DNA of 34,610 nt from IMG/VR virus record IMGVR_UViG_3300032396_000069, positions 1-34,610 of that record. One strand, written 5' to 3'. The stretch's first letter is position 1. Every line of letters starts with the position of its first letter. The notes beneath the pieces are model-generated. The model was not told where the DNA came from. It ran no database searches and worked only from the letters and a program-made list of their open reading frames with translations. Source of the stretch: a virus. This document shows positions 1,526 to 20,568 of the stretch, piece by piece. A program made the position numbers and the translations under genes.

Positions 1526-2662
1526 ATGGGAACGACACTTGGTTATGAATCCATCCTGAATCTCGCCCTCCCGTCCGGCGTCGATGCAACGCTGCTGGCG
1601 CAGTGGGAACTGGCGACCGGTGAGACCTTTATGGGCTTCACCCAGCGCTTGGCGAGTGCCCTGGCTGCCGTCAACGCGGAATTTCAGACGGACTGGGGCA
1701 ACCTGTTTTACACCACCGAAACTCAGGAGTTCGAGTATCGCAACGGGGGCACCCCGGCGGCATCGCCCGTGGTTACCGACCTCGATGTGGTCGATCCGAC
1801 GCACGAAACGACCATCGGTCACCAGATCGCGCTGGAAGTCAAACAAGAAGTCATCGGCGGGACCGAGCGATGGTTCCTGGATGCGCGCGAAATGCAATTG
1901 ACCTCCGACATCGGGGGCAAGATCGACAACCTGCGTAAGCGCTTCGAAACCGATCTGCTCAACCGCGCTTTCCTGACCACCGAATACAGCGTCGGCACCT
2001 CTGGCTACAACGTGCCCTGGGTCCACTCGACCACGGGCAACATCGACTTCGTGCCGGTGGCCTACAACGGCGAAACCTTTGCCAGCACACACGATCACTT
2101 TCTGGGGGTGGCGTCAGGGTCCTACGGGTTCGGCGACATGCTGAACCAGATGGCCGAAACCCTCCAGGAACATGGACATGATGGTCCGTATTATGCCATT
2201 GTCTCCCGTGCGGACATCGGTAGCTATCGCGACCTGGCTGACTTCATTCGCCCCAAGGATCAGATGATCTCGATCATCGACCGCGCAGGCGAAACCAGTG
2301 GTCCGAACTACTACACCACCCAGGCGCTCCGTAAAGGCGTCATCGGCGGGTTCAGCTCGGATTATGGCGAAATCGAACTCTATGCGACGGCGCGCGTGCC
2401 GACCGCCTACGCCTTCCTGACCAAGAGTTATGGCACCCTATCGCCCAAGAATCCGTTTGCGGTCCGGCTGCGTCCGGCCTCGCGCGGGGGCAAGGGCTTC
2501 GGGTGTTACATCGCTGCCGTCACGGGAGATAGTACCATCAGCCCGATCAAACTCATCCGTATGGAGTTCGAATACGGGCTGGGGCTGGGCGGGGATCGTA
2601 CCAATGGGGTCGCTGCCTATCGCTCGACGGGTGGCACCTGGACGAATCCGACCATCAGTTGA
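1526..2662 (+). CDS. Major capsid protein (HK97-fold type)
   Basis: The protein has 378 residues, the usual size for an HK97-fold coat protein. It follows the protease/scaffold and decoration genes and precedes the connector genes. The N-terminal ~40 residues are helical and hydrophobic. The middle has a long charged E-loop-like region and an Ala/Glu/Lys helix, and the C-terminal third has beta-rich segments with Arg and Gly. It would build the icosahedral shell. GGGAGG about 5 bases before the ATG gives a strong ribosome binding site, as expected for the most abundant virion protein. The fold assignment rests on size, order and pattern. Confidence 0.75.
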   Translation: MGTTLGYESILNLALPSGVDATLLAQWELATGETFMGFTQRLASALAAVNAEFQTDWGNLFYTTETQEFEYRNGGTPAASPVVTDLDVVDPTHETTIGHQIALEVKQEVIGGTERWFLDAREMQLTSDIGGKIDNLRKRFETDLLNRAFLTTEYSVGTSGYNVPWVHSTTGNIDFVPVAYNGETFASTHDHFLGVASGSYGFGDMLNQMAETLQEHGHDGPYYAIVSRADIGSYRDLADFIRPKDQMISIIDRAGETSGPNYYTTQALRKGVIGGFSSDYGEIELYATARVPTAYAFLTKSYGTLSPKNPFAVRLRPASRGGKGFGCYIAAVTGDSTISPIKLIRMEFEYGLGLGGDRTNGVAAYRSTGGTWTNPTIS

Positions 2663-2678
2663 CATCCGACACAGTAAC

Positions 2679-2701
2679 AGAGGGGCGTCGTGAGCCCCTC
2701 T
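2679..2701 (+). terminator. Stem-loop directly after the major capsid gene
   Basis: AGAGGGGC (2679-2686) and GCCCCTCT (2694-2701) form a perfect 8-bp stem with a 7-base loop. No T-run follows, so it is not a classical terminator. It could pause transcription or protect the 3' end of the capsid message, lowering expression of the downstream genes. It covers a GTG that might otherwise be taken as the start of the next gene. Confidence 0.6.
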
Positions 2702-2713
2702 CTTGAGGAACCC

Positions 2714-3730
2714 ATGATCGAAAGTCGCGGTTTTAATTACCTCCACTTCCGAAAAACGGCCTGCGATGGCTACAGTTATTATGCCCTCTCGCAGATCAAG
2801 GCGCTGGCACAGATCGGCGCGAAGGTGTATCCCGGCTTACTCATGGACCTGGAGGACACGCCGGGCTGGTATAACTACCTGCGCGGGTTGGATATGACCC
2901 GCCTGAACGTGGTGCTGGCCCCTCCGCATGATCTGAAAGCCATGCCCGGTCGGGTGTTTGCGAGCACCATGTACGAGAGCACGCGCCTTCCCGACGAGTG
3001 GGCACACCACGTCAACACGAAAGCGGAACGCCTGATCGTGCCCTGCCAGTGGTGTGCAGACGTGTTTCGCGACAACGGTGTCACGACTCCGATACACATC
3101 GTGCCGGGGGGCGTTGATCCGGTTGAGTTTCCGAACACATTCATCCCTCTGCCGACGAACCGTCCTTACACCTTTCTGGCATTTGGGGACCGGGGCAGCC
3201 GCAAGGGGCAGGATCTCGTCTGGGAAGCCTTTTACGATACCTTTGGGGAAAACCCGGACGTGCGCCTGATCATCAAAACCCGGCAAGGGGGTCTCCCCTG
3301 GCTGTCGACCGCCAAAGGCGACCGGCGGGTGACGATCTGGCGTGAGGACGTGCTCCACATGGCCGACGTGTATGCGCACGTCGATTGTGTGGTCAATCCG
3401 ACCAAGGGCGAAGGTTGGGGCATGTTCCCCCGTGAAGCCGCCTGTACCGGGAAACCGGTCATCTGCACCGCGTTCGGCGGCACCCTGGATGGGGTAGAAC
3501 ACTGGGGCATTCCCATCGTGAATTACCAGATGGTCCCCGCCGCCATTCTGGGTGGTGGCGAATGGGCCATGCCCGATGTTGAAGAAGTCGGCACGCACAT
3601 GCGCTGGTGTTACGAGCACCGCGACGAGGCGTGGCAGAAAGGGCAGCAGGCCGCCGCCTGGCTGCGCGAACACCAGACCTGGCAGCATTCGGCCCGGCGC
3701 TTGATGGAGTTGATTGAGGAGTGGGGCTGA
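2714..3730 (+). CDS. GT4-like glycosyltransferase in the head operon
   Basis: The 338-residue protein has a GT-B layout with family 4-like motifs. The first domain ends with Pro-Gly-Gly-Val-Asp (residues ~131-135). A strand with Arg-Lys-Gly (~163-165) follows, and then a Glu-Gly-Trp-Gly segment with a downstream Glu-Ala-Ala-Cys-Thr-Gly-Lys-Pro-Val-Ile stretch (~233-251), which corresponds to the EX7E nucleotide-sugar site. Such enzymes move a sugar from a nucleotide donor to an acceptor in the cytoplasm. I chose ATG 2714, with GAGG 5 bases upstream, over GTG 2690, which lies inside a stem-loop. The stop overlaps the next start (TGATG). The acceptor is unknown: the coat protein, another virion protein, DNA bases or host glycans are all possible. 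Confidence 0.8.
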   Translation: MIESRGFNYLHFRKTACDGYSYYALSQIKALAQIGAKVYPGLLMDLEDTPGWYNYLRGLDMTRLNVVLAPPHDLKAMPGRVFASTMYESTRLPDEWAHHVNTKAERLIVPCQWCADVFRDNGVTTPIHIVPGGVDPVEFPNTFIPLPTNRPYTFLAFGDRGSRKGQDLVWEAFYDTFGENPDVRLIIKTRQGGLPWLSTAKGDRRVTIWREDVLHMADVYAHVDCVVNPTKGEGWGMFPREAACTGKPVICTAFGGTLDGVEHWGIPIVNYQMVPAAILGGGEWAMPDVEEVGTHMRWCYEHRDEAWQKGQQAAAWLREHQTWQHSARRLMELIEEWG

Positions 3731-5401: not shown

Positions 5402-5935
5402 ATGGCATATACGCAGAGTTTCATGTACGGCCTGTCGGACGCCAAGATCGCCGTCTGGAATAGCGCTCAGAACTATGGGACGGCGCTGGACGTAGAGTCC
5501 GTCAAGGTCTTCGGGGTCGAGCTGGATATGGAAAGCGGCGAACTGGAAGGTGATGACATCATCACCGACAGCCATGCCAAAATCCAGGCGGCCAACATCA
5601 CGCTGGGCTTCGGTCTCAAGGACAACGATGTCCTGGCCATTTTGACCGGGGTGACCAATACGGTCAGCACCAATACCGAGTCGATGATCTTTGGGCGGGA
5701 CAACATGCCTTACTTCGCCATCTGTGGCCGCGTGGACACCACCACGGGGGGCGGGGATATGTGGCTGTTTATCCCCAAGGTCAAGATCATGTCCGGCTTG
5801 AACTTCTCGATGGCCAAGGGCGCGTACATCGAAGAGAACGTGACGGCGCGGGCCCATTATGAAAGTACCGTCTACGGCGTGATGAAACTGATCCATCATG
5901 CGACGGCGACGGCCGTGACCATCCCACCCACGTAA
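5402..5935 (+). CDS. Major tail tube protein
   Basis: A 177-residue protein with the pattern of tail tube subunits: an N-terminal segment describing a 'sample' of beta strands, a hydrophilic acidic stretch (Gly-Glu-Leu-Glu-Gly-Asp-Asp), then Phe-Gly-Arg-Asp-Asn-Met-Pro-Tyr-Phe (~98-106) as seen in several siphovirus tube proteins, and a beta-rich C-terminus. It would polymerise around the tape measure protein. GGAG precedes the ATG by 5 bases. It sits just before the tail assembly chaperone and tape measure genes. Confidence 0.75.
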   Translation: MAYTQSFMYGLSDAKIAVWNSAQNYGTALDVESVKVFGVELDMESGELEGDDIITDSHAKIQAANITLGFGLKDNDVLAILTGVTNTVSTNTESMIFGRDNMPYFAICGRVDTTTGGGDMWLFIPKVKIMSGLNFSMAKGAYIEENVTARAHYESTVYGVMKLIHHATATAVTIPPT

Positions 5936-5951: not shown

Positions 5952-6488
5952 ATGGTAAACCAGTTGGTATTGACTCCGCCCCACGAATGGCGGAAAGAAT
6001 CAGAAGGGGAGCTGTGTCGGCTCCCCTCCGGTCGTGTGGCACGGTTGCGCGGCGTCCAGTTCGACTTCTTCGTGATGACGGGCAAAATCATGGACAGTCT
6101 GACGCCCATCATTGCTGCCATTATGGAGGGGAAGAAAGATATTGAGGCCATGCTGCCCGACAAAATCGCGGACCTTCAGCAGTACATCGACATCCTCAAC
6201 GCGGTGTGCCGCTGTGCGTTTGTGGAACCGCAAATTGTGGACCCTCCGATCTCGGACAACCAGATCAGCATCAATGACCTGCTCTTCGAGGACAAGGAGT
6301 TTGTCTATCACCTGCTGGGGATCGCGACTCGCGACTTGGAGCCCTTTCGTCGGCAACAAGAAGGCTATGTGGACTCTGTGGTGTCTCCAGAAGGACACGT
6401 ACCAGCCAGCGAGCCACCTGCTGAACCTGCGCGCGTGGGCGACGGCGAAGACGGGGCTGGACGGGTGGTGGACGGCGTTCCAGTTTGA
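5952..6488 (+). CDS. Tail assembly chaperone, short form (G-like)
   Basis: This 178-residue product lies between the tube and tape measure genes. Residues 1-131 look like a folded helical protein. The last ~45 residues (Gly/Pro/Glu/Asp/Val-rich) look like an unstructured out-of-frame tail. By analogy with lambda gpG/gpGT it would chaperone the tape measure protein and stay out of the virion. AAGGGG precedes the ATG. Its 3' part overlaps an open frame at +1 that runs to the tape measure start, so it is probably the short product of a programmed frameshift. Confidence 0.65.
   Translation: MVNQLVLTPPHEWRKESEGELCRLPSGRVARLRGVQFDFFVMTGKIMDSLTPIIAAIMEGKKDIEAMLPDKIADLQQYIDILNAVCRCAFVEPQIVDPPISDNQISINDLLFEDKEFVYHLLGIATRDLEPFRRQQEGYVDSVVSPEGHVPASEPPAEPARVGDGEDGAGRVVDGVPV
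6342..6345 (+). other. Candidate +1 slip site CCC.T in the tail chaperone gene
   Basis: In the short-form frame the codons read GAG CCC TTT CGT. A shift of tRNA-Pro from CCC to CCT moves reading into the +1 frame at TTC (6346). Both Pro and the following Phe can re-pair after the shift. CCC.U is known to support +1 frameshifting in Listeria phage PSA. The exact site is inferred; other slip points upstream (for example GGG.A at 6318-6321) are possible. Confidence 0.45.
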
Positions 6489-6651
6489 TCGGGCGGTGTC
6501 CTGGTTCGGGCGGCACGTCGAAGGCGTGCTGAACGAGACCGACGATAAGGGCCACTACAAACACACCTTGGCCGAGGTGTTGGGCGATGAGCCAGACAAG
6601 CAAGAGGCTCTGGACTGGCTCACGGGCATGTTTGGAGTAATCCGCACATGA
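6346..6651 (+). CDS. Tail assembly chaperone extension (T-like) reached by +1 frameshift
   Basis: The +1 frame gives 101 residues rich in Trp, Leu, Ala and Lys, with well-formed amphipathic helices, ending at TGA 6649-6651. That stop overlaps the tape measure ATG (ATGA). Joined to residues 1-131 of the short form it yields a product of 232 residues. The only internal ATG in good position (6367) has a purine-rich tract only 2 bases away, so independent translation is less likely than frameshifting. The T-like part would bind the tape measure protein. Confidence 0.6.
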   Translation, partial: FVGNKKAMWTLWCLQKDTYQPASHLLNLRAWATAKTGLDGWWTAFQFDRAVSWFGRHVEGVLNETDDKGHYKHTLAEVLGDEPDKQEALDWLTGMFGVIRT

Positions 6652-9600
6652 GCGTCTTCGACCAGATGGGATGGTCTTCCAAAGGAGCCGAGGGCACCGG
6701 CAACTCGGTCGGCAATGCGCAGGGACGGTTTACGATTGATACGTCCAGTTTTGCGCAGGCCCGGTCGGAGATTCTCCGCGAATCCCGCGCCATGAATGCC
6801 GCCATCAAACAAAGTCTGGGCGATACGGCCAAACAAACGGCACTACAAACCCGCGCGGAAGCTCAAGCCTATAACGATCTGCTCAAAAGCCTCAAGCGGG
6901 ATTATCAAGACCGCCTGAAGCAAGAAAAGACCCTCACCAAACAAATCGAGCGGGAAGCTGCCGAACGACTCAAGATCGAAAAGAAAGCGGCTGCCGAACG
7001 CGCCAAGTTACAAGAGGCGCGTATGACAGCGCTCGGCGGGGCTACCGTGGCGGCCACCGGGCTGGGATTGGCGGCGGCGCAGGACATCAAGGTGTTGCGC
7101 GCCCAGTTCAAGTTGTTCTATGGGGATCAGCGCAAGTCGACCGAGGAAATGGAACGGCTGCGCGACCTCGCTGAAAAACTCAACCAGCCTTTCCTGGAAG
7201 TGCTGCGGAATGCCACGGAACTCATCCCGGCGGTCAAAGGCACCACGGCGGAACTTGCGCAGGCCACCATCATCTCTCAGAAGTTAGCCACGCTGCTGCC
7301 TGAAATGGCCAGTCGTGCGGGGTTTGCCCTCCGCGAGTTCAGCGTGGGACAGTATATGTCGCTGACCCGCGTGTTCAACCTCAACCGGGAAAAACTGAAA
7401 GAAATCCTGGACCTGGCCAACGGGGATGTCAAGGTCGCCTTCGACTTGCTGGATGAATATCTCAGTCAGTTGGGGGTCACCACGGACAAGTTGGCCGAAG
7501 TGGGGCGCGACACCAATGCGTTTAAGGTGCTTCGGTCCGAATTGACCGAAACGCTGGCCACCGGGTTCATGCCCCTTCGAGATGCTCTGTCTGACATCAC
7601 CTGGGGGCTGTCCGACATGCTGCGCACCGTACGCGAACTGCACCCCGATCTCCTGAAAGTGGCCTCAACCCTGGCGGTCATTATAGCCCTGTCCCAGTCG
7701 GGCCGGGTGGCGGGGGCACTGCCCGTCGTGGGGCAGTTTGCGAAGGGCCTTGGTCTTCCCTCCGTCAGTGCAGGCACGCTGGGGAAAGCGGGATTGTATG
7801 CGGGCGTAGGGGTGGGATCGGCTTACGTGGGGGCCCTGGCAGGCAAACAAATTGTGCGGGGCATTGGGGCAGTCACGGGACGAGAAGATTTGCAGCAGTT
7901 CTCCTTGAACGAGGCGCTTACCACCTTGAAAAAAGGGCTATATGCGATTGCGTATGCCCTAGGGTCCTTTGCGAAACATATTGCTGATATGTCCACGGGC
8001 TGGGATGATATGTGGGCCTCTCTTCAACAGAAGATCATTGATGCCCTCACGGAAGCGATCAATGGGATCATCGGGTTGATCAACAATATACCCGGCGTTC
8101 ACGTGGAGAAAGTCGCGAAAACCAATGTGAGAGCCGGACGCGACATCAACCGTGCGCAAGAAGCAGCCACTCAATTCCTGACCCTTCCTCCCGAAGCCCA
8201 AAATCAGGCGACCCAATGGGCCACCCGACGAGGGATGAGTACCGGGGACTTTCTGGCGAACATCACGCAAATTACAGAGGCGTTTAAAACGGCGACCGCG
8301 CAGGGACGGGATTTTGTCACCGTATTGGATGAGACCTACGATGATCAGGCGATCACCTCCGCTGATAAATTTCATGAGGACATCAATCAATGGCTCCTCG
8401 ACTTGGGCAAAACGATGGGGATCATTGAAGAAGGCAAAGGGCATCAGGGCCAACTCTCCAGCAATCGGATGGGTGGGATCAACCCATCTGAATTGCAAAT
8501 GACGGACGAGTTACTGGCAGAGTGGCAGAAATTCCAGCAAGACCTGTTCGACATCGCCGTCGAGTACGACCAGAAGATCACCGACCTGACGCTGGATCAT
8601 AATAACGATCTGGCCGATCTGTACCAACAGTTGGGCGATGATCTGGTGCAGGCGGCGGCGGATGAGGCCGAGCGGTACCAGGAAGCCCTGCAAAAGGCGC
8701 GCGACTCGGAACTGGAAATCCGCACCGATCTGGCAGATAAACTGGCCGAAGACGACGCCGATCTCGCCGATAAGCTGTTAGAACTCCAGGATGATTATCA
8801 AAAAGCGGACGAAAAGGCGACCAAAGATCATCTGAAAGCCCTGCTGCGGATTCAGGAAGAGGGGCGGTTGGCGATCCTCTCGGCAGCGGCCCGGTTGGAC
8901 GGCGTGGCGGTGTGGGAAGCCATGCAGCGCATGAAGCAGCAGTTGAAAGACGAGCAGGACAATTACCAGGACGAACGGAAGGAACGCCAGAAGCGCCTGG
9001 ATGACCAGATCGCCGATGAACTGAAAGCGCACGAAAAACGCGCGGCGCAGGATCAGCGGGAGGCCGATAAAAAGATTGCCAAACTCTGGGAGCAGTATCG
9101 CAAGGAAGAAACCGCCGCCGCCGCCGACTACAGCAAAAAGCTGGCCGACCTGCGCAAGAATTTCGTCGACCAGCAGACCGAATATGGCAAACAGTACACG
9201 CAGCGTCTCAACCAACTGATCGCCCAGGGCGCAGCGGAAAAACAGCAGCGCGAGCAGTCCTGGTTGGATACCTTCAATGCTATCGAAGAAGAGGCGGGGG
9301 TGCATGAAGACGCCCTGCTCAAAATTCACCAGGATGGCAGTGCCGCCATCGAGGCCCAACTCACCGCCTGGTATAACGGCATGATCGCGAAGTTTGCGCA
9401 GACCACGGGCGTCATGGGCACGCCTATCACCCCGGTGGGGTCGCTCCTGAGAGCGCCGCTGAAGCAGGGCGGGGGACGACTGGCTGCGACCGGACTCTTC
9501 CGGGGGGAGCGCGGGGAAACGGTGCTGCGCCAGGATACCACCCGGCAGATCAGCCGTATGTTGGGTGACAACTGGACGCCCAGTTCCCTGACGGCGGCCT

Positions 9601-9737
9601 TGGCAGGTGGACGCCAACGGGAACGAGGTCCGGTGGGGCCGATTGCCATCAATATCTATGGAGAGACGCGGCGCAGTGATGCGGAGATTGAGAATCTGGT
9701 GCGGCATGAGTTGGTGCAGGTCTTCGAGGGGTTGTAA
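6648..9737 (+). CDS. Tape measure protein
   Basis: At 1029 residues this is the longest gene of the window. It sets tail length and lies in the tube lumen. Residues ~45-125 are a coiled coil of Lys/Glu/Ala/Gln. Hydrophobic segments occur at ~128-145, ~335-370 and ~385-415, and could insert in the host membrane on DNA ejection. Residues ~610-900 form a very long charged coiled coil. The C-terminal ~110 residues are Gly/Arg-rich and end in a small alpha/beta piece. The start overlaps the chaperone stop (ATGA). No lysozyme or peptidase domain is obvious in it. Confidence 0.9.
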   Translation: MSVFDQMGWSSKGAEGTGNSVGNAQGRFTIDTSSFAQARSEILRESRAMNAAIKQSLGDTAKQTALQTRAEAQAYNDLLKSLKRDYQDRLKQEKTLTKQIEREAAERLKIEKKAAAERAKLQEARMTALGGATVAATGLGLAAAQDIKVLRAQFKLFYGDQRKSTEEMERLRDLAEKLNQPFLEVLRNATELIPAVKGTTAELAQATIISQKLATLLPEMASRAGFALREFSVGQYMSLTRVFNLNREKLKEILDLANGDVKVAFDLLDEYLSQLGVTTDKLAEVGRDTNAFKVLRSELTETLATGFMPLRDALSDITWGLSDMLRTVRELHPDLLKVASTLAVIIALSQSGRVAGALPVVGQFAKGLGLPSVSAGTLGKAGLYAGVGVGSAYVGALAGKQIVRGIGAVTGREDLQQFSLNEALTTLKKGLYAIAYALGSFAKHIADMSTGWDDMWASLQQKIIDALTEAINGIIGLINNIPGVHVEKVAKTNVRAGRDINRAQEAATQFLTLPPEAQNQATQWATRRGMSTGDFLANITQITEAFKTATAQGRDFVTVLDETYDDQAITSADKFHEDINQWLLDLGKTMGIIEEGKGHQGQLSSNRMGGINPSELQMTDELLAEWQKFQQDLFDIAVEYDQKITDLTLDHNNDLADLYQQLGDDLVQAAADEAERYQEALQKARDSELEIRTDLADKLAEDDADLADKLLELQDDYQKADEKATKDHLKALLRIQEEGRLAILSAAARLDGVAVWEAMQRMKQQLKDEQDNYQDERKERQKRLDDQIADELKAHEKRAAQDQREADKKIAKLWEQYRKEETAAAADYSKKLADLRKNFVDQQTEYGKQYTQRLNQLIAQGAAEKQQREQSWLDTFNAIEEEAGVHEDALLKIHQDGSAAIEAQLTAWYNGMIAKFAQTTGVMGTPITPVGSLLRAPLKQGGGRLAATGLFRGERGETVLRQDTTRQISRMLGDNWTPSSLTAALAGGRQRERGPVGPIAINIYGETRRSDAEIENLVRHELVQVFEGL

Positions 9738-10127
9738 ATGAGCAGCTATCAGATCGTGGATGGCTTTGACCATGCCGGGACCCTGGCGACGTTCAACCCG
9801 CAACCAGCCTCTCCCGGCCTTCTGTACCCGCGCCGGGACATTGCCGTGAATGGGCACGAGTATGTCAACGGGCAGCCCTATACCTTCTGGGAATACAAGG
9901 GCATCATCCCCGCCAGCCAGTATGATGCTCTGCTGACCCTGTTTGGATTGAGCAATACCGTCGTGTCCAACGAAGTGACGATTAAAACCATGACCGACCC
10001 TGACCGCTCGACCTGGAGCAATTACAACGCGATTATTGTGCTGCCGGTGAATGGACAGGATGTCACCTACGAACGAGGGTTCTGGCGGGATGCGAAGTTC
10101 AAGGTCAAACTGGTGGAGGCGCTATGA
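9738..10127 (+). CDS. Small minor tail protein
   Basis: A 129-residue beta-rich protein with many Tyr, Trp, Asn and Gly residues. It starts one base after the tape measure stop with GAGGGG upstream, and its stop overlaps the next start (ATGA). Proteins in this place are usually distal tail or tip components. No family motif is recognised; it may join the tube to the large hub that follows. Confidence 0.55.
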   Translation: MSSYQIVDGFDHAGTLATFNPQPASPGLLYPRRDIAVNGHEYVNGQPYTFWEYKGIIPASQYDALLTLFGLSNTVVSNEVTIKTMTDPDRSTWSNYNAIIVLPVNGQDVTYERGFWRDAKFKVKLVEAL

Positions 10128-12910
10128 CAGTTACCTGGCGCGACCATCCTTACTCCTATGACGGTTTTTTAGCTGTCTTGAACCCCGCGACTGTGCTGGC
10201 CGCCCAGGTGGACTACACCCACACGAACAGCAGCGGTAAACTGGCGGGCACGAGCATCTGGCAGTATGTCTTCTTCGATACGGTGACGGTCGGCGATACC
10301 TCGGCTACCGGAGTCGAAGAAGGCATGACCCTGATCCTCGGCAGCAGTGCTGGGGCCGACGACCTGGGTCGCTGCCGGGTGCGCGGTGTCACCACGGTCA
10401 ACGTGGGGGGAACGAATTACACGGTCCTGATGGTCTGGGCCAGCCCCAACAAAGCCGATGGCGGGCTGTACATCTACAACACGACCATACATTTATCCGT
10501 ATTTCTCGACTATCGCGTCTGGATGAAGGCTCCCTACTACATCGGCGCATCGGGCTACTTCGATGGCACGATTGGACCAGTACCGGCCACCTGGAAACCC
10601 GCCCCCAAAGCGAATGCGGGTCCGGGCTATGCGGGTTTCGTCGATGCCACCACGGGGCTGGCCACCGTCTCCTTCAGTGGCGCGAATAGTTATGCCACCG
10701 CCCGCGATGCGGTATTGGGAGCGTGGGGGTCAGACATTGCGCCGACAGCGACCATTACGTCATCCTCGGAGAACGGCACCCACTACGACCACCTGGTGGT
10801 TGATGGTAACACGACCACCTATTGGGAGGCGACATCCGACCAGAACGAATATCTGATCTTCACGTTTGCGGCGGCCAAAAAGATCAAGAAGTTCTCCTTG
10901 ACCTGTACCGGGTTGTATGCCCCGTATCAATTCCAGTTGCGCAAGACCGCGACCGGATCGGCGAATGTGGGCGAATATTTCTCCACCGCCTGGGGCACGA
11001 ACGAAACGCGCACCTTTTACGTGGACTACGATTATCCCGATGGAGGGCTAACGGTCTTTCGTCTCTACGTCCAGTCGTCGGATGGTGGCGGTGGTTATAA
11101 CGTGCGTATCAAGGAAGTCAAGTTCTATGAGGAAGATCGCGCGACCGCTTACACGTGGGGCGTGGATTCGACGGTGACCATCACGGTGGGGTCCACCACC
11201 ACCGAAGCCATCACGGCGACCTTCCCCCCCGGCTGGCACTGGGTCAAACTCACCGTCACGGACAGCCTGACGATGACTGGCTTTGTGCATGTCCCGGTAT
11301 ATGCGGGAACGCGCGATGGATTGGGCCTCATCAATCCTGCGGGAGCCACGCTGACGGCCAGTACCGAAAAGTTGGGGTATCCCAAAGAAGCGGCCTTTGA
11401 TAGTGATACCGGCACGGCCTGGGCCGCGACCGCCAATACCGGCTCGCTCTCCATTGAATATGGAGCGGCGCAGAGTGTGGGAGAGGCGGTGATAACCAGC
11501 GGCTTAATCGACACCTGGTCGAGCACTATTCGGGATTTCAGTATCGACTATTGGAATGGAAGCGCCTGGGTGCCGGTGGCGTCGGCGGCTGATCTTCCCC
11601 CGACTACCTGGTACGGCGATGCAGGCAATATTCCTTACGTGGCGACATTTACGCCCGTCACCGCCGCGAAGTGGCGTATCAATATCACGGACAGCAACGC
11701 CGAAGGCACCTCGGTGGGAGTGAAAGAACTGGCGTTTTATCAAACGGGAGCCCCCGTTCCCATCACCGATTTCGAAGTGACCAATCAGGTGCTTGGGTTG
11801 GGCGGGCAAAAGCTATCGGTCATCATTCATGAAGACCTGCCGCTCGACACATATCCCGATGGCACCCTGGTGATGTACTGGGAAGAGGAATATTACGGGG
11901 GCGTTCAAGGCAGCCTGAGTACGGCGGGCCCCAGCGGACGTGAGCACGTCAAATTCATCGGTTGGATCGATACGGAACCGACCGAGATCGTCGCCGAGTC
12001 GTTCGATACGCGAACCAGCACCACCTTTGACTGCGTGGATGTCGGCGGACGCCTGGCCCAACTCCCGGCATTTTCGTTGATGTTCGAACGGGTCACGACC
12101 ACACCAGGCTACCTCTACGAATTGTATGGGGCGAACCTGGACCGCTGCATCTATATTATGTTGCATTATATGTCCACGGCTTGCGAACTGGCGGACTTTT
12201 TCGGCACGAAACTGGGGGATACCTGGGGCGTCAGCATTCTCGCGATGCAAAGCGGCACGCTGTTTTCGTCCATCGACGAACGGGCGCAAGCCATTGCCTA
12301 TCGCTTCACCTGTGACAAACTGGGACGCTTACGGCTGATTGAAGATCCCATGCTCAAGGGCACGACCGATCATGGTACCTCTATCACGTTGGCGCTGACC
12401 GAAGCGGATTATTCGTCCCTGACCTATACGCATACCCGGCCCAGTCGTTACCACTGGTTGTGGGGCAGCAGCATCGATGCCTACATTCTCGAAGTCAAAA
12501 CGGATGTCTCGTTTGTCATCTCGACCTACTTCTGCATCGTCCCCGGTGAAACCCCAGGGCAGGGCGCATCCTCGGAGGATCATGGCGAGCAGTTGGGCAC
12601 CCAGTTCCAATTGAACTGGCGGGAGGGGCACCGATACGCCGCGCGGCTGAATGCCAATGACTCGAACCTGGAGATGGGGTTGTGCCATGCGGGAGATTAT
12701 GGACTGGACCCGGCGCAGATGATGTGGGTATCATTGACGCTGACTTCCGATCATGCGCCGGTACGCGGACGAACGTTCAGTGCCCACCCTGCCTTGCTCT
12801 ATGAGCTGCGGATCGTGCATGATCACGCCGCCAAAACCAAAACCGTATCGCTGACGATGGAGCTCGAAGTGTATGGCACCTCGGCAGTGACCTATACGCC
12901 CCCGGCCTGA
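10124..12910 (+). CDS. Tail hub/adhesin with discoidin-like and PKD-like domains
   Basis: This 928-residue protein has a mosaic layout. Residues ~1-160 are beta-rich. Residues ~163-202 and ~340-393 look like the two halves of a PKD-type Ig domain. Residues ~205-337 between them resemble a discoidin (F5/8 type C) domain, with a Gly-Asn-Thr-x-x-Tyr-Trp segment and a jelly-roll strand pattern. Residues ~405-541 form a second discoidin-like domain. The remaining ~380 residues look like a baseplate hub/tail tip part. Discoidin domains bind glycans or lipids, so host recognition is likely. Neighbours are coupled by ATGA and TGATG. The domain borders are by eye. Confidence 0.65.
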   Translation: MTVTWRDHPYSYDGFLAVLNPATVLAAQVDYTHTNSSGKLAGTSIWQYVFFDTVTVGDTSATGVEEGMTLILGSSAGADDLGRCRVRGVTTVNVGGTNYTVLMVWASPNKADGGLYIYNTTIHLSVFLDYRVWMKAPYYIGASGYFDGTIGPVPATWKPAPKANAGPGYAGFVDATTGLATVSFSGANSYATARDAVLGAWGSDIAPTATITSSSENGTHYDHLVVDGNTTTYWEATSDQNEYLIFTFAAAKKIKKFSLTCTGLYAPYQFQLRKTATGSANVGEYFSTAWGTNETRTFYVDYDYPDGGLTVFRLYVQSSDGGGGYNVRIKEVKFYEEDRATAYTWGVDSTVTITVGSTTTEAITATFPPGWHWVKLTVTDSLTMTGFVHVPVYAGTRDGLGLINPAGATLTASTEKLGYPKEAAFDSDTGTAWAATANTGSLSIEYGAAQSVGEAVITSGLIDTWSSTIRDFSIDYWNGSAWVPVASAADLPPTTWYGDAGNIPYVATFTPVTAAKWRINITDSNAEGTSVGVKELAFYQTGAPVPITDFEVTNQVLGLGGQKLSVIIHEDLPLDTYPDGTLVMYWEEEYYGGVQGSLSTAGPSGREHVKFIGWIDTEPTEIVAESFDTRTSTTFDCVDVGGRLAQLPAFSLMFERVTTTPGYLYELYGANLDRCIYIMLHYMSTACELADFFGTKLGDTWGVSILAMQSGTLFSSIDERAQAIAYRFTCDKLGRLRLIEDPMLKGTTDHGTSITLALTEADYSSLTYTHTRPSRYHWLWGSSIDAYILEVKTDVSFVISTYFCIVPGETPGQGASSEDHGEQLGTQFQLNWREGHRYAARLNANDSNLEMGLCHAGDYGLDPAQMMWVSLTLTSDHAPVRGRTFSAHPALLYELRIVHDHAAKTKTVSLTMELEVYGTSAVTYTPPA

Positions 12911-13206
12911 TGATGATTACACGAAACGAAGTGCGCCATCTGATTCGAAGTAAACTGGCTCAGGCCAAGTTCATGAACTATATTCCCGCCGTCATGGGGC
13001 GCGATGATGGAGGGGCGTCTTTCACCTTTACGGTACCGGGGGGACGGGGGTATACTTATGTACGGATTATCCAGAGTGGCAGCCCGATTACGCTGACCAA
13101 AGCCCTCAACCGGGCGGGCATTGCCGAAACAGGGGATCTCCCCGTCTGGCTGGACCAGGATGCCGATGGACGGTTGGTCATTATTTCCGCGAGGTTTACC
13201 GGCTGA
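12910..13206 (+). CDS. Small tail-associated protein, unknown function
   Basis: A 98-residue basic and beta-rich protein. It starts at the ATG at 12910, or at the next codon (ATG 12913), and overlaps the hub stop (TGATGATG); its stop overlaps the sortase-like start. It has no Cys, signal peptide or membrane segment. Its place between hub and sortase-like gene suggests a virion or tail assembly role, but this is inference. Confidence 0.6.
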   Translation: MMITRNEVRHLIRSKLAQAKFMNYIPAVMGRDDGGASFTFTVPGGRGYTYVRIIQSGSPITLTKALNRAGIAETGDLPVWLDQDADGRLVIISARFTG

Positions 13207-13703
13207 TGAAACGTGGATGGTTCCTGATTTTACTGCTGTGGTTCCTGGGAAGCGTGGCTCCTGCTTCCAGTGCCCCTCCCCCGATGGGCCTGCTGCTCAT
13301 CCCGTCTCTCCAGATGACCGAGCCGATCTACGAACGTATGGAAGCGAATGGGGTGCTGGATTTGAGCATCTTGGGCACGCATGTGGCGCATTATGGGGGC
13401 ACAGGGTGGCTGAACTCAGGCTATAGCCCTATCATCCTCGTCGGGCATCTGGCGCTCCAGGAACAACGACCCGGCGCATTCTACCGGCTGTCGGAAGTCC
13501 AGATCGGGGCACGGATCGTGGTGTCGGACCCGCATAGAAGTGCCTGGTTCCGCGTGACGGCCTCCTATGTCACCGATCCGTCTGATGCGGCGATCCTGCA
13601 AGTGCGACCCGTCCTTCCTGGCGCGGAGCAGCTCGTCCTGATTGCCTGTGAAGGCGCAGATGGTGCTCAGCGGCGTATCGTCATCGCGACGAGGGAGTTC
13701 TAA
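13206..13703 (+). CDS. Secreted sortase-like transpeptidase (class D/E/F type)
   Basis: The 165-residue protein opens with a hydrophobic signal or anchor (residues 4-17) and an Ala-Ser-Ser-Ala stretch suited to signal peptidase. The rest reads as a compact sortase barrel. It has Val-Gly-His (His81), then Gly-Ala-Phe-Tyr-Arg-Leu (90-95) and a strand with Gly-Ala-Arg-Ile-Val-Val. Ile-Ala-Cys-Glu-Gly follows (Cys148), then Arg156/Arg157 ahead of a final strand. This His-Cys-Arg order and spacing is the sortase catalytic set. Sortases cleave sorting motifs and join proteins to amines in the cell wall. The gene is coupled to tail genes on both sides. What it cleaves is unknown; no C-terminal sorting signal is visible in its neighbours. 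Confidence 0.75.
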   Translation: MKRGWFLILLLWFLGSVAPASSAPPPMGLLLIPSLQMTEPIYERMEANGVLDLSILGTHVAHYGGTGWLNSGYSPIILVGHLALQEQRPGAFYRLSEVQIGARIVVSDPHRSAWFRVTASYVTDPSDAAILQVRPVLPGAEQLVLIACEGADGAQRRIVIATREF

Positions 13704-13704
13704 C

Positions 13705-14886
13705 ATGGGCATCGGACTGGCCGTTCTCGGCGCGCCAGGGTTGGGGGGCGGGGGGCCTCATAATACTACCGCTCCTATCATCTCAGCCACCGCCACAATA
13801 GGCACGACCATCACCCCTACGCCCGGCGTCTGGATGGGCAACCCTACGCTGACCTACCAGTGGCAGCGCTACACGGGAGGCGCATGGGTCGACATCGGCG
13901 GAGCCACGACCGCGAATCGTGCGCCAGTGGATGCGGATTTCGGGTTGGCGCTCCGGCTGGCTGAAACCCCGAATGGCATCACAGCGCTGACGGTCTACAG
14001 CAACAGCACAGGATTGACAGCGGAAGCGCCCGCGCAAAGTTTGGGGAACGAACTGCTGCAAAACAATGCTCTATCTACGTGGAGTGGGGATAATCCGTCC
14101 AGTTGGTCCGTGGGAGGGGAATCCGGCAGCGATCCGCAGCTTACAGAGCGCGATCCCAACCAGGGCCACGCGGATACCAAGACGGTCGGGGGCGCAGCGA
14201 ATTATTACTCATCTGCTGTAACCAATCAGCCTTCGATGTTTCAGACGATCCTCTCCATTGGCAGTTATTATGAGTCGCTCATTGAAGTCTCAAATTTCGT
14301 GGGAGGCAGTATCCGCCTGGAAATGGGAGACATATTTCCCACCCTTACCGCTATTGGTACGTACCGCATTTTGGGACGTGCGACCTGGGCGGTGTGGAAT
14401 TTGCGTGCGATTGGAGCGCCGGATGTAACAGTCAACAGCACCTCTTCCAAATTGTTAACGATAAATACGCAGCTTATCGCGCCCGGTGCCAATATGCGTC
14501 TGGACCAGTTCTATAGTTTACCTGCCACACCGGCGGACGGATCACAGACGTGGCTCTATGCGCGCATCAGCGATTTTGCGACTGGAAATTTTTGGAAAGT
14601 TGAGTTGGTTTACAACGGCTCGCAGTGGAACATCAACCTGTACAGCGTGGCCACATTCACCAAAACGAGTCGGATCGCCGCGACCAACATTGGGGCGACG
14701 AATGGAGTACGGGTCAACATGAACGGCGATCAACTCTCCTTGTGGACCACTGCCGACGGCGGCGCGAACTGGACACAGCGAGGCACGACGATTACCAATT
14801 CGACCTATCAGACCGCCACGGGAGTCAACGCGATCTGGACCAGCGACGTTACGCCGGGAAATTTGGTCTATGCTCCGGCGGCTTAG
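13705..14886 (+). CDS. Ig-like/carbohydrate-binding tail protein, receptor-binding candidate
   Basis: I chose ATG 13705, with AGGGAG (13693-13698) 6 bases upstream, giving 393 residues. The first ~20 are Gly-rich. Residues ~25-110 have the Pro-Thr-Pro-Gly-x-Trp and Tyr-Gln-Trp-Gln-Arg pattern of bacterial/phage Ig-like domains. Residues ~115-230 resemble a carbohydrate-binding jelly roll (Asn-Glu-Leu-Leu-Gln-Asn... Trp-Ser). The C-terminal ~150 residues form a further concanavalin-like beta sandwich with Trp and Asn. This layout fits a fibre or tip protein that binds host surface glycans. The gene follows the sortase-like gene by one base after its stop. Confidence 0.6.
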   Translation: MGIGLAVLGAPGLGGGGPHNTTAPIISATATIGTTITPTPGVWMGNPTLTYQWQRYTGGAWVDIGGATTANRAPVDADFGLALRLAETPNGITALTVYSNSTGLTAEAPAQSLGNELLQNNALSTWSGDNPSSWSVGGESGSDPQLTERDPNQGHADTKTVGGAANYYSSAVTNQPSMFQTILSIGSYYESLIEVSNFVGGSIRLEMGDIFPTLTAIGTYRILGRATWAVWNLRAIGAPDVTVNSTSSKLLTINTQLIAPGANMRLDQFYSLPATPADGSQTWLYARISDFATGNFWKVELVYNGSQWNINLYSVATFTKTSRIAATNIGATNGVRVNMNGDQLSLWTTADGGANWTQRGTTITNSTYQTATGVNAIWTSDVTPGNLVYAPAA

Positions 14887-17472: not shown

Positions 17473-17549
17473 CCGCACGCCCGTACAGACGCCAGATGTT
17501 CGCGGCCTGGCAGGCCATGCGCCGGGCCTGGGGGAAGCGACGACGATGA
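17469..17549 (+). CDS. 26-residue basic microprotein coupled on both sides
   Basis: ATG 17469 overlaps the zinc-motif stop (ATGA), and TGA 17547-17549 overlaps the lysin start (ATGA). The encoded peptide is strongly basic: eight Arg and one Lys with Trp, Met and Ala, ending in Arg-Arg-Arg. Exact coupling at both ends suggests it is translated. It may be only a coupling peptide that delivers ribosomes to the lysin, or a membrane-active basic peptide. Confidence 0.5.
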   Translation: MTARPYRRQMFAAWQAMRRAWGKRRR

Positions 17550-18829
17550 AACGCCTGCTGCCTCTCGCCCTGATCTTCGTCGCCTTATGGCTCTCTGGCC
17601 CGGTCCTGCTTTCCAATGGGCAGGACGAACCTACGCCTGTGCCCCCACCCGCACCGGTGCCAGAGTCAGAGAAAGTCCTGTATATCAACATCTACACCGA
17701 CGGCACCTGGGACTACGCGCCCCTGCCGGAAGGCACGCCGACGCCCGACGAATTCACGCCTGCCCCCAGCAGCACCCCGACGCCCATGCCCAGCCCGACG
17801 CCGACCAGCACGCCGCTGCCTCTCTGCGGAGGGCTGACGACCGCCGATACCTTGAATGGTCGCGACGCCCCACGGGGTGCGGTCACTGCGCAGTTCACCA
17901 AGGGGACGGCGGTAGGCATCTCTGGGGGACAGTGGTACAACCAGGCAGGCACCTGGGAGCTCTGGTATAAGGCGACCGCCAACGGCAAGACGGTCTGGGT
18001 GCTCTCGACCTACGTCCAACTGAACACCGGCGCGGTGTGCAGCTTCCCCGCCAAGCCGGTGACCTCGAAGCTGGGCCTGCACCTGACCGTGGGAGCTAAC
18101 GCCGGTGTTGTTTATGCTGCGCTACCCCGGATCGGGCTGCTGAAATGCACGACGGGCACAGAAGGTATTTGCATCGGGGCCAAACAACAGCGCCCCGATT
18201 TGCTGATCTTGTATCGTGTTACCACGCCCGACTGCCCCACAGGATGGGGCAACGGTAACGGTACGGCGGTCGCCGATGCGTGGTGGAACACGAAATACAA
18301 CCAGTGGCGCGCGGCGGGCATGATCGGCGTGGCAGATTTTACAGAGGGAGTCAATGAGTGCGGGTTTGGGGGCAGTGCGTGGGAGCGGGCGTTCTGGATT
18401 CGCATGATGGAAAACGCCAACCTAGCAGGCGTCTGTATTTTGCTGTTTTCGGACTCCTATGGCACGCCGTCAATCCTCGAATTTCAATCGCGCGCGCCTA
18501 TCCTCGATTACGCGCTGGCGCATCCCTGCGCGTCCGGGCGGGTACACAGTATCGCCATGCACAGTTATGAGGGCGTTCAGTCCGGGGATTGGAAGTGGGG
18601 GCGTTACCGCCTCTTTATGGATGCGCTGGGCGACAAGTATCTCCAAGTCCCGATTGTGTTCAGCGAGTATGCCTATAACACAGGCAATCCGCCCACTGAT
18701 TGTACTGCGCTGTGGGCAGATTGGTCGCAAGCCTCGAAGGTATTCAACGCCGATCCCCAGGTGCTAGGAGTGAATTATTTTAATACCTCGCCTATCGGCG
18801 GCTGGCTGGATGTCAGCCCGTGCTTTTAG
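17546..18829 (+). CDS. Sec-exported lysin with SH3b and glycosidase-like domain
   Basis: 427 residues. A signal peptide (~1-24) is followed by a Pro/Thr/Ser-rich linker (~28-92), an SH3b-type domain (~93-165) and a TIM-barrel-like domain (~173-427). The last has Asn270-Glu271 and Ser373-Glu374 in the positions of the clan GH-A acid/base and nucleophile. SH3b domains bind peptidoglycan, so a wall glycan hydrolase is expected. Lysin export by Sec would place the enzyme outside before lysis, with the membrane proteins triggering activity. The stop codon (TAG 18827-18829) overlaps the stop of the opposite gene. Confidence 0.65.
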   Translation: MKRLLPLALIFVALWLSGPVLLSNGQDEPTPVPPPAPVPESEKVLYINIYTDGTWDYAPLPEGTPTPDEFTPAPSSTPTPMPSPTPTSTPLPLCGGLTTADTLNGRDAPRGAVTAQFTKGTAVGISGGQWYNQAGTWELWYKATANGKTVWVLSTYVQLNTGAVCSFPAKPVTSKLGLHLTVGANAGVVYAALPRIGLLKCTTGTEGICIGAKQQRPDLLILYRVTTPDCPTGWGNGNGTAVADAWWNTKYNQWRAAGMIGVADFTEGVNECGFGGSAWERAFWIRMMENANLAGVCILLFSDSYGTPSILEFQSRAPILDYALAHPCASGRVHSIAMHSYEGVQSGDWKWGRYRLFMDALGDKYLQVPIVFSEYAYNTGNPPTDCTALWADWSQASKVFNADPQVLGVNYFNTSPIGGWLDVSPCF

Positions 18830-19533: not shown

Positions 19534-20568
19534 CTAGGCGCTGGCGGCGAACATCGGCAGATCACTCAATAACGCCGTCACAAACCCCGGTCGATCCAAG
19601 GCGCGCCATGCCGCCATGATCGCATTGCAGGATCGCCGATGCGCCTCATAGTTGATTTCCGGCTCCGACCATCCCTCATTCGGGATGATCCCGCGTCCAC
19701 TCGGCGTCCAATATTCCCCTACTTCGCTCAGGTGGTGCAGGTAGTTGCCATCCGCGCTCCACACTTGAAGCACCGCCGATAATGACAACTGCCGACCCGG
19801 ATCTCCACCCAGTAAATGCACCGGCCACCCGCGAAACTCCGCGATGGGTACTTTCGTGCCGCCGTAAGTAGTGGGCACACTGTATCCCAGTCGCACGGGC
19901 TTTCCACCTATCGACCGGGGCAAGCGCGCGATCCCGCCATTGACTTTGGGGATGATGATTACCACCTGGGCATACTGTGACGCTTCATTGGCCCAGTCGA
20001 GCACTTCCGGCAGTTGCTCCTCGCGTTCCCAGTCGAGCACGGTCGCCAGCCAGGGACGATACTCCGCCAGCGCGGCCATAAACTCAGCGCGGTTTGGATT
20101 CTTGTACTCCTGATCTACCATGTAGGGGCGGTGATAGACGGTGCTCGGCAAGCGTGCGCCCAACAACCAGCCCGCATCACAGGCGATCTCAGCGTAGCGA
20201 GTAGACCGCGCGGCGCAGTAGATCAATTCGCGCTTCCCGACATTCGGTTGCCACATGCGACGCAAAGGCAACCGCCAGCACAACAGCCGCCGTCCGTTGT
20301 CGGTGTATTCGATGCTGTCCAGATGGAAGCCGCGCCGGAAGTACCAGCTATTCGCCTCCAGGTCTTCGGGGCACTTGGCGAAGATGCTGGTTGCACCCGG
20401 CGTCCAGGTCAGGCGGCGTAACATCTGCGATCCTGCCCCGCGCCGCTGGCTAATCAATTCGTAGATCGTCAGTTGGCCATCGTTGCGAAGATGCCAACGG
20501 CAGTAGCCGCCATCGACGAGCATCAACTCGCGGCGTTCACTGGACTGGTAGAGCGATTCGAAGATCAT
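19534..20568 (-). CDS. GNAT-like N-terminus fused to a barrel-like domain (transglycosylase-like?)
   Basis: 344 residues. Residues ~20-102 look like a GNAT acetyltransferase: Arg-Arg-Gly-Ala-Gly (42-46) in the acetyl-CoA loop position and Tyr-Phe-Arg-Arg-Gly-Phe (76-81) near its end. From ~115 to ~290 a repeated strand-loop pattern recalls a (beta/alpha)8 barrel, with a Leu-Asp-Trp-Glu strand (~178-181), Ile-Pro-Lys-Val, Leu-Gly-Tyr-Ser-Val-Pro-Thr (~227-233), His-Leu-Leu-Gly-Gly (~251-255) and Asp-Gly-Asn (~273-275). The last resemble TGT/DpdA-type guanine transglycosylases, but I cannot prove this. No deazaguanine synthesis genes are visible. The ribosome site is weak. Confidence 0.5.
   Translation of the reverse strand: MIFESLYQSSERRELMLVDGGYCRWHLRNDGQLTIYELISQRRGAGSQMLRRLTWTPGATSIFAKCPEDLEANSWYFRRGFHLDSIEYTDNGRRLLCWRLPLRRMWQPNVGKRELIYCAARSTRYAEIACDAGWLLGARLPSTVYHRPYMVDQEYKNPNRAEFMAALAEYRPWLATVLDWEREEQLPEVLDWANEASQYAQVVIIIPKVNGGIARLPRSIGGKPVRLGYSVPTTYGGTKVPIAEFRGWPVHLLGGDPGRQLSLSAVLQVWSADGNYLHHLSEVGEYWTPSGRGIIPNEGWSEPEINYEAHRRSCNAIMAAWRALDRPGFVTALLSDLPMFAASA

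Follow-up and report, generated by a model that had tools for sequence, protein, structure and literature searches.

The window, that is, the whole linear IMG/VR virus record of 34,610 bases from an uncultivated tailed phage, almost certainly carries among its tail genes a gene for a sortase-family protein (Table 1). The ORF starts with ATG, and residues 31–162 of its product match the Pfam profile PF04203 (Sortase), scoring 56.4 bits (cut-off 26.6), a match that, on this profile score, is far above chance. The catalytic His, Cys, and Arg occur in the order and with the spacing typical of sortases, as seen in alignments. The first-pass annotation, which had described a sortase-like enzyme with a signal peptide and a His81-Cys148-Arg156/157 arrangement, was thus borne out on all three points. 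The identity of the enzyme is well supported, whereas its function and target we infer.

Table 1. Features of the window and of the compared viral loci (window coordinates unless contigs are named)
Feature	Position	Strand	Evidence or remark
Major capsid protein	1526-2662		
Major tail protein	5402-5935		
1029-aa ORF, tape-measure size	6648-9737		
ORF between tape-measure-size ORF and hub-like tail gene	9738-10127		
Hub-like tail protein of 928 aa; F5/8 type C carbohydrate-binding domains	10124..12910	+	PF00754 4.6e-13; phrog_17517 (tail) 1.7e-8
Small gene upstream of sortase, 98 aa	12910..13206	+	no Pfam, PHROG, or NCBIfam match above cut-off
Sortase-family protein, 165 aa	13206..13703	+	PF04203 3.2e-15; best 50 Foldseek PDB matches all sortases
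N-terminal signal-like segment, residues 1-23, without lipobox Cys	13206..13274	+	hydropathy
Catalytic-type His81 (VGHL)	13446..13448	+	invariant in 39/39 aligned sortases
Catalytic-type Cys148 (LIACEG)	13647..13649	+	Cys in 37/37 aligned sortases reaching the column
Arg156-Arg157	13671..13676	+	Arg157 the likelier catalytic Arg
Gene downstream of sortase, 393 aa, possible receptor-binding/fibre protein	13705..14886	+	position only
Protein with signal-like N-terminus, 427 aa, Pro/Thr linkers, candidate exported lysis enzyme	17546..18829	+	
Sortase genes of six actinophage-like contigs (L048-L053)	near 10001; 9401 in L052		
phrog_17228 loci	L054:34395-34991 and L057-L062	- (L054)	

His81 and Cys148 stand in the columns of the catalytic His and Cys of the aligned sortases. 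The position of the arginine depends on the alignment, since that with 8T28 pairs Arg157 with the Arg of THRI (THRI/QRRI), whereas the MAFFT column favours Arg156; from these alignments Arg157 appears the likelier catalytic residue, Arg156 being possible too. The N-terminus, MKRGWFLILLLWFLGSVAPASSA, is hydrophobic and resembles an export signal in a hydropathy scan (2.78 over 10 residues), and cleavage would be expected after ASSA.

The protein fits none of the classes of cellular sortases tried. It misses the general NCBIfam sortase model (30.8 bits vs a cut-off of 39.35) as well as the class models C (29.1/160 bits), D (25.5/165), E (17.8/160), and F (25.5/166), so that assignment to class D, E, or F, against which the first-pass annotation had proposed a profile search, is not supported. 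In a tree of 33 rows, mostly from Actinomycetota, it lies on a branch of 2.24 without a supported neighbour. With PF04203 (peptidase family C60) it shares the domain above the cut-off, the His/Cys/Arg set, the predicted fold, and the signal-like N-terminus, and it differs in being phage-coded, in its location in a tail block, in fitting no class, and in having LIAC where sortases usually have TLxTC. Class C sortases come closest in several respects: 8T28 is the best pairwise sequence match among solved structures (E 0.0022), 8T28 and SrtC1 structures are the best Foldseek matches of the predicted model, and the short Cys-to-Arg spacing of 8–9 is common to both; nevertheless, the class C score is far under its cut-off, and no pilin gene was recognised near the window sortase. 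The protein is best read as a true sortase-family cysteine transpeptidase that has no class as yet.

A weak model of the fold is compatible with a sortase, whose hallmark is an eight-strand barrel. AlphaFold gave a pLDDT of 38.7 for the protein alone, and a pLDDT of 60 with a pTM of 0.54 when supplied with an alignment of 11 sortases from fetched loci; the C-terminal half of the model is good, and the N-terminal half has a pLDDT around or under 50. Foldseek found 99 PDB matches with an E of 0.001 or lower; the best stands at E 1.6e-7, and the 50 listed are all sortases, with the model reaching TM 0.42–0.48 to sortases. As the input alignment itself contained sortases, these matches support the sortase fold of the model but do not prove it independently.

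Close relatives of the gene were not recovered. The scarcity of phage-coded sortases, already remarked upon in the first-pass annotation, is reflected in the lack of any tblastn relative among the 50,697 phage records of INPHARED (nor was any found among the 72,556 plasmids of PLSDB) and in only two clear fold matches of the model in BFVD. No direct relative of the window sortase was detected by single-protein scans of IMG/VR and GTDB, or by viral scans with an alignment that included two solved sortases and with one that included designed rows; the latter (A2–A5) are aids to the search pattern and not real sequences, and all matches were confirmed by tblastn. The GTDB scan with the designed alignment yielded five Actinomycetota sortases only, which do not show an actinobacterial origin, as the designed patterns favour class F. 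A class C query of INPHARED retrieved sortases in unannotated Listeria and Enterococcus 'phage' contigs and in gut contigs, all of which look like host DNA; these were rejected as phage sortases, and the Listeria/Enterococcus contigs (OR846588, OR847695, and similar ones) look like host chromosome contamination. A search with the capsid gene led to a contig (L002, from a record of 25,415 bases) with a 100% identical capsid protein and to two further relatives at 83–88%; the sortase is absent from all three, none of which reaches its position, and scans with the hub, a capsid alignment, and Prim-Pol revealed no sister phage covering it. A search of 247 genomes of Actinomycetota for capsid relatives found none, a result that says little about the host; a Chloroflexota host is suspected from the Pro/Thr linkers and the G+C content of 58%.

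The sortase gene is tightly packed on both sides, in accordance with its earlier placement within the tail gene block. Its ATG begins on the A of the TGA of the upstream 98-aa ORF (an overlap of one base), and the next ORF follows after a one-base gap. Of the flanking genes named in the first-pass annotation, the tail hub is upheld by phrog_17517 and the F5/8 type C domains, while the receptor-binding label of the downstream gene is unproven, its product having no family match in Pfam, PHROG, or NCBIfam. The G+C content of the sortase gene by codon position (65/47/69%) resembles that of other genes of the window, and base composition is even across the region. On the plus strand there is no terminator-like site from 9500 until 16218, and promoter-like sites are no more frequent than chance expects. 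These features make the sortase look like a part of the late tail-gene block, without transcription of its own, rather than a separate insert. Further downstream, the 427-aa protein has no Pfam, PHROG, NCBIfam, or PDB match and is a candidate novel exported endolysin. Two overlapping ORFs in different frames precede the tape-measure-size ORF (5952–6651), an arrangement also found in contig L004 and resembling the frameshifts of tail assembly chaperones.

Phage sortases recur beyond the window. A search with class F sortases of Actinomycetota revealed six actinophage-like IMG/VR contigs (L048–L053), in all of which the sortase was confirmed with PF04203; the class F cut-off was passed by each of the four tested. 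An exported protein is encoded directly upstream of the sortase in 6/6 contigs, and its C-terminal ends are RIDTGLGGTA, RVDTGLGGLAK, RVDTGLGGLTR, VPRGGVATGGGPA, TPSGGVATGGGPA, and VPVGGVATGA, without a membrane tail. Such a pairing suggests a substrate with its enzyme, and (D/A)TG-GG is possibly a new sorting motif. INPHARED contains no tblastn relatives of the two cassette sortases and the one exported partner tested. Two of the six contigs, the temperate actinophage-like G258 and G259, have terminase, portal, and integrase genes besides the sortase cassette. Like the window sortase, the enzymes of the six contigs are phage-linked and exported, several of them lie close to tail or endolysin genes, and they are about 23–35% identical to it. 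Most have a lipobox, however, and after the catalytic Cys they share with class F sortases of Actinomycetota the sequence TCGGxFD..Y..N; the window sortase has neither. It also lacks the adjacent exported partner: no exported (D/A)TG-GG protein is encoded directly upstream, where the 98-aa product showed no signal in the hydropathy scan. A 2026 paper (PMC13251363) states that what class F sortases do physiologically is still unknown.

A second group of phage proteins was reached through the predicted fold. In BFVD the window model is matched best by a protein of 198 aa from Streptomyces phage TP1604. It is uncharacterised and was taken from its length and sequence to be the product of gene 43, which belongs to phrog_17228 ('peptidase'). 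Matches to this family are found in 20 records of Streptomyces phages, among them TP1604, Zuko, and Samy, with members annotated as 'peptidase' or 'cysteine protease', both annotations being predictions. It is sortase-like: His, Cys, and Arg are invariant in seven aligned members, three members match PF04203 weakly (best 0.0066), and the Samy record notes PDB 4D70_B, 4d70_A being described as Clostridium perfringens sortase D. Its members resemble the window sortase in being phage-coded and exported, in the His/Cys/Arg set, and in most cases in the CEG starting with the catalytic Cys. They differ in their location outside the tail block, TP1604 gene 43 lying among non-structural genes. The link between the two is one of modelled fold only, as their sequences have diverged too far to be paired with confidence, and the window protein had no PHROG match at E 0.1 (hhalign probability 3.8 for phrog_17228).

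Bacteria use sortases to fasten proteins to the cell wall, and a presumably exported sortase in a tail operon suggests that the phage alters the surface of its host. The enzyme would be made late, in one transcription unit with the tail genes, and would reach the outer side of the host membrane through the general export path. There Cys148, with His81 and Arg157, would cut a sorting-type peptide of a surface protein, presumably of the host (or of unseen phage origin), which would then be joined to the wall or released. The surface of the infected cell would thereby be altered, most likely with the benefit of less re-adsorption of progeny or rival phages. This account as a whole, to which we assign an even chance, draws on the Pfam match, the catalytic set, the fold matches, the signal-like N-terminus, and the tight packing in the tail block, on the sugar- and glycan-related genes of contig L002, and on the independent viral contigs in which a sortase and its exported neighbour lie close to tail and lysis genes. 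Against it we count the weak model, the lack of a close relative with the gene, and the lack of a visible substrate: a scan for a motif followed by a hydrophobic tail found no C-terminal sorting signal in the window, itself a fragment (in agreement with the first-pass annotation), or in loci L002 and L012. The six contigs with a sortase beside an exported protein indicate that in other phages the probable partner can come from the phage itself, but those partners go with class F-type sortases, a group different from the window enzyme.

The late tail-lysis location and the missing phage substrate would also suit an exported peptidase or hydrolase that strips wall-anchored host proteins or cuts wall cross-bridges, aiding lysis and progeny release; we hold this to be unlikely, since sortases hydrolyse slowly without an acceptor and the 'peptidase' and 'cysteine protease' labels of the phage proteins of related fold, which would favour it, are predictions. 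A virion-associated protein of the tail tip, with the hydrophobic N-terminus aiding membrane contact and the enzyme acting on wall peptides at entry, seems distinctly unlikely: wall-active enzymes are common in phage tail tips and the gene lies directly between tail genes, but proteins built into tails in the cytoplasm do not usually carry an export signal, and the N-terminus, with MKR, a hydrophobic stretch, and an SSA-like end, reads as one. A passenger gene (moron) of host origin, expressed in lysogeny and benefiting the lysogen only, is quite improbable despite the abundance of sortases as cellular genes and the cassettes of the temperate contigs, as the gene has a phage-like composition, overlaps tightly with the tail genes, and has no promoter or terminator-like site of its own beyond chance, and neither the window nor contig L002 (both fragments) contains a tyrosine integrase.

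A broader view can be put forward tentatively, with more doubt than confidence: tailed phages may have recruited sortases more than once (in the window phage, in the six class F-type contigs, and in phrog_17228) as a general means of reshaping the surfaces of infected cells. The window enzyme, coded in the tail operon without a substrate of its own, would be a new class acting directly on host surface proteins. The phrases 'phage sortase', 'viral sortase', and similar ones were not found in the literature searched, from which subscription journals were mostly missing, so their absence is no proof of novelty. With the tail-operon sortase and the sortase–partner pairs of other phages, covalent anchoring of proteins would join the known means by which phages change host surfaces, and short phage sortases could supply new specificities for protein ligation.

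In the L002 contig a large group of genes upstream of the capsid gene (L012 and L002:1–7614) codes for glycosyltransferases, FkbM methyltransferases, and nucleotide-sugar enzymes, namely a UDP-sugar dehydrogenase and a sugar epimerase, which fit modification of envelope or virion glycans. The group adjoins a 581-aa portal-like ORF with no Pfam match. In the window itself the capsid and connector genes flank a glycosyltransferase gene (2690–3730; phrog_2170, 8.3e-24) that contigs L003 and L004 have retained. Finally, a minus-strand block including the gene of a DUF6610 protein (19534–20568; 1.2e-33) runs towards the tail-lysis block, the two meeting near 18.8 kb.
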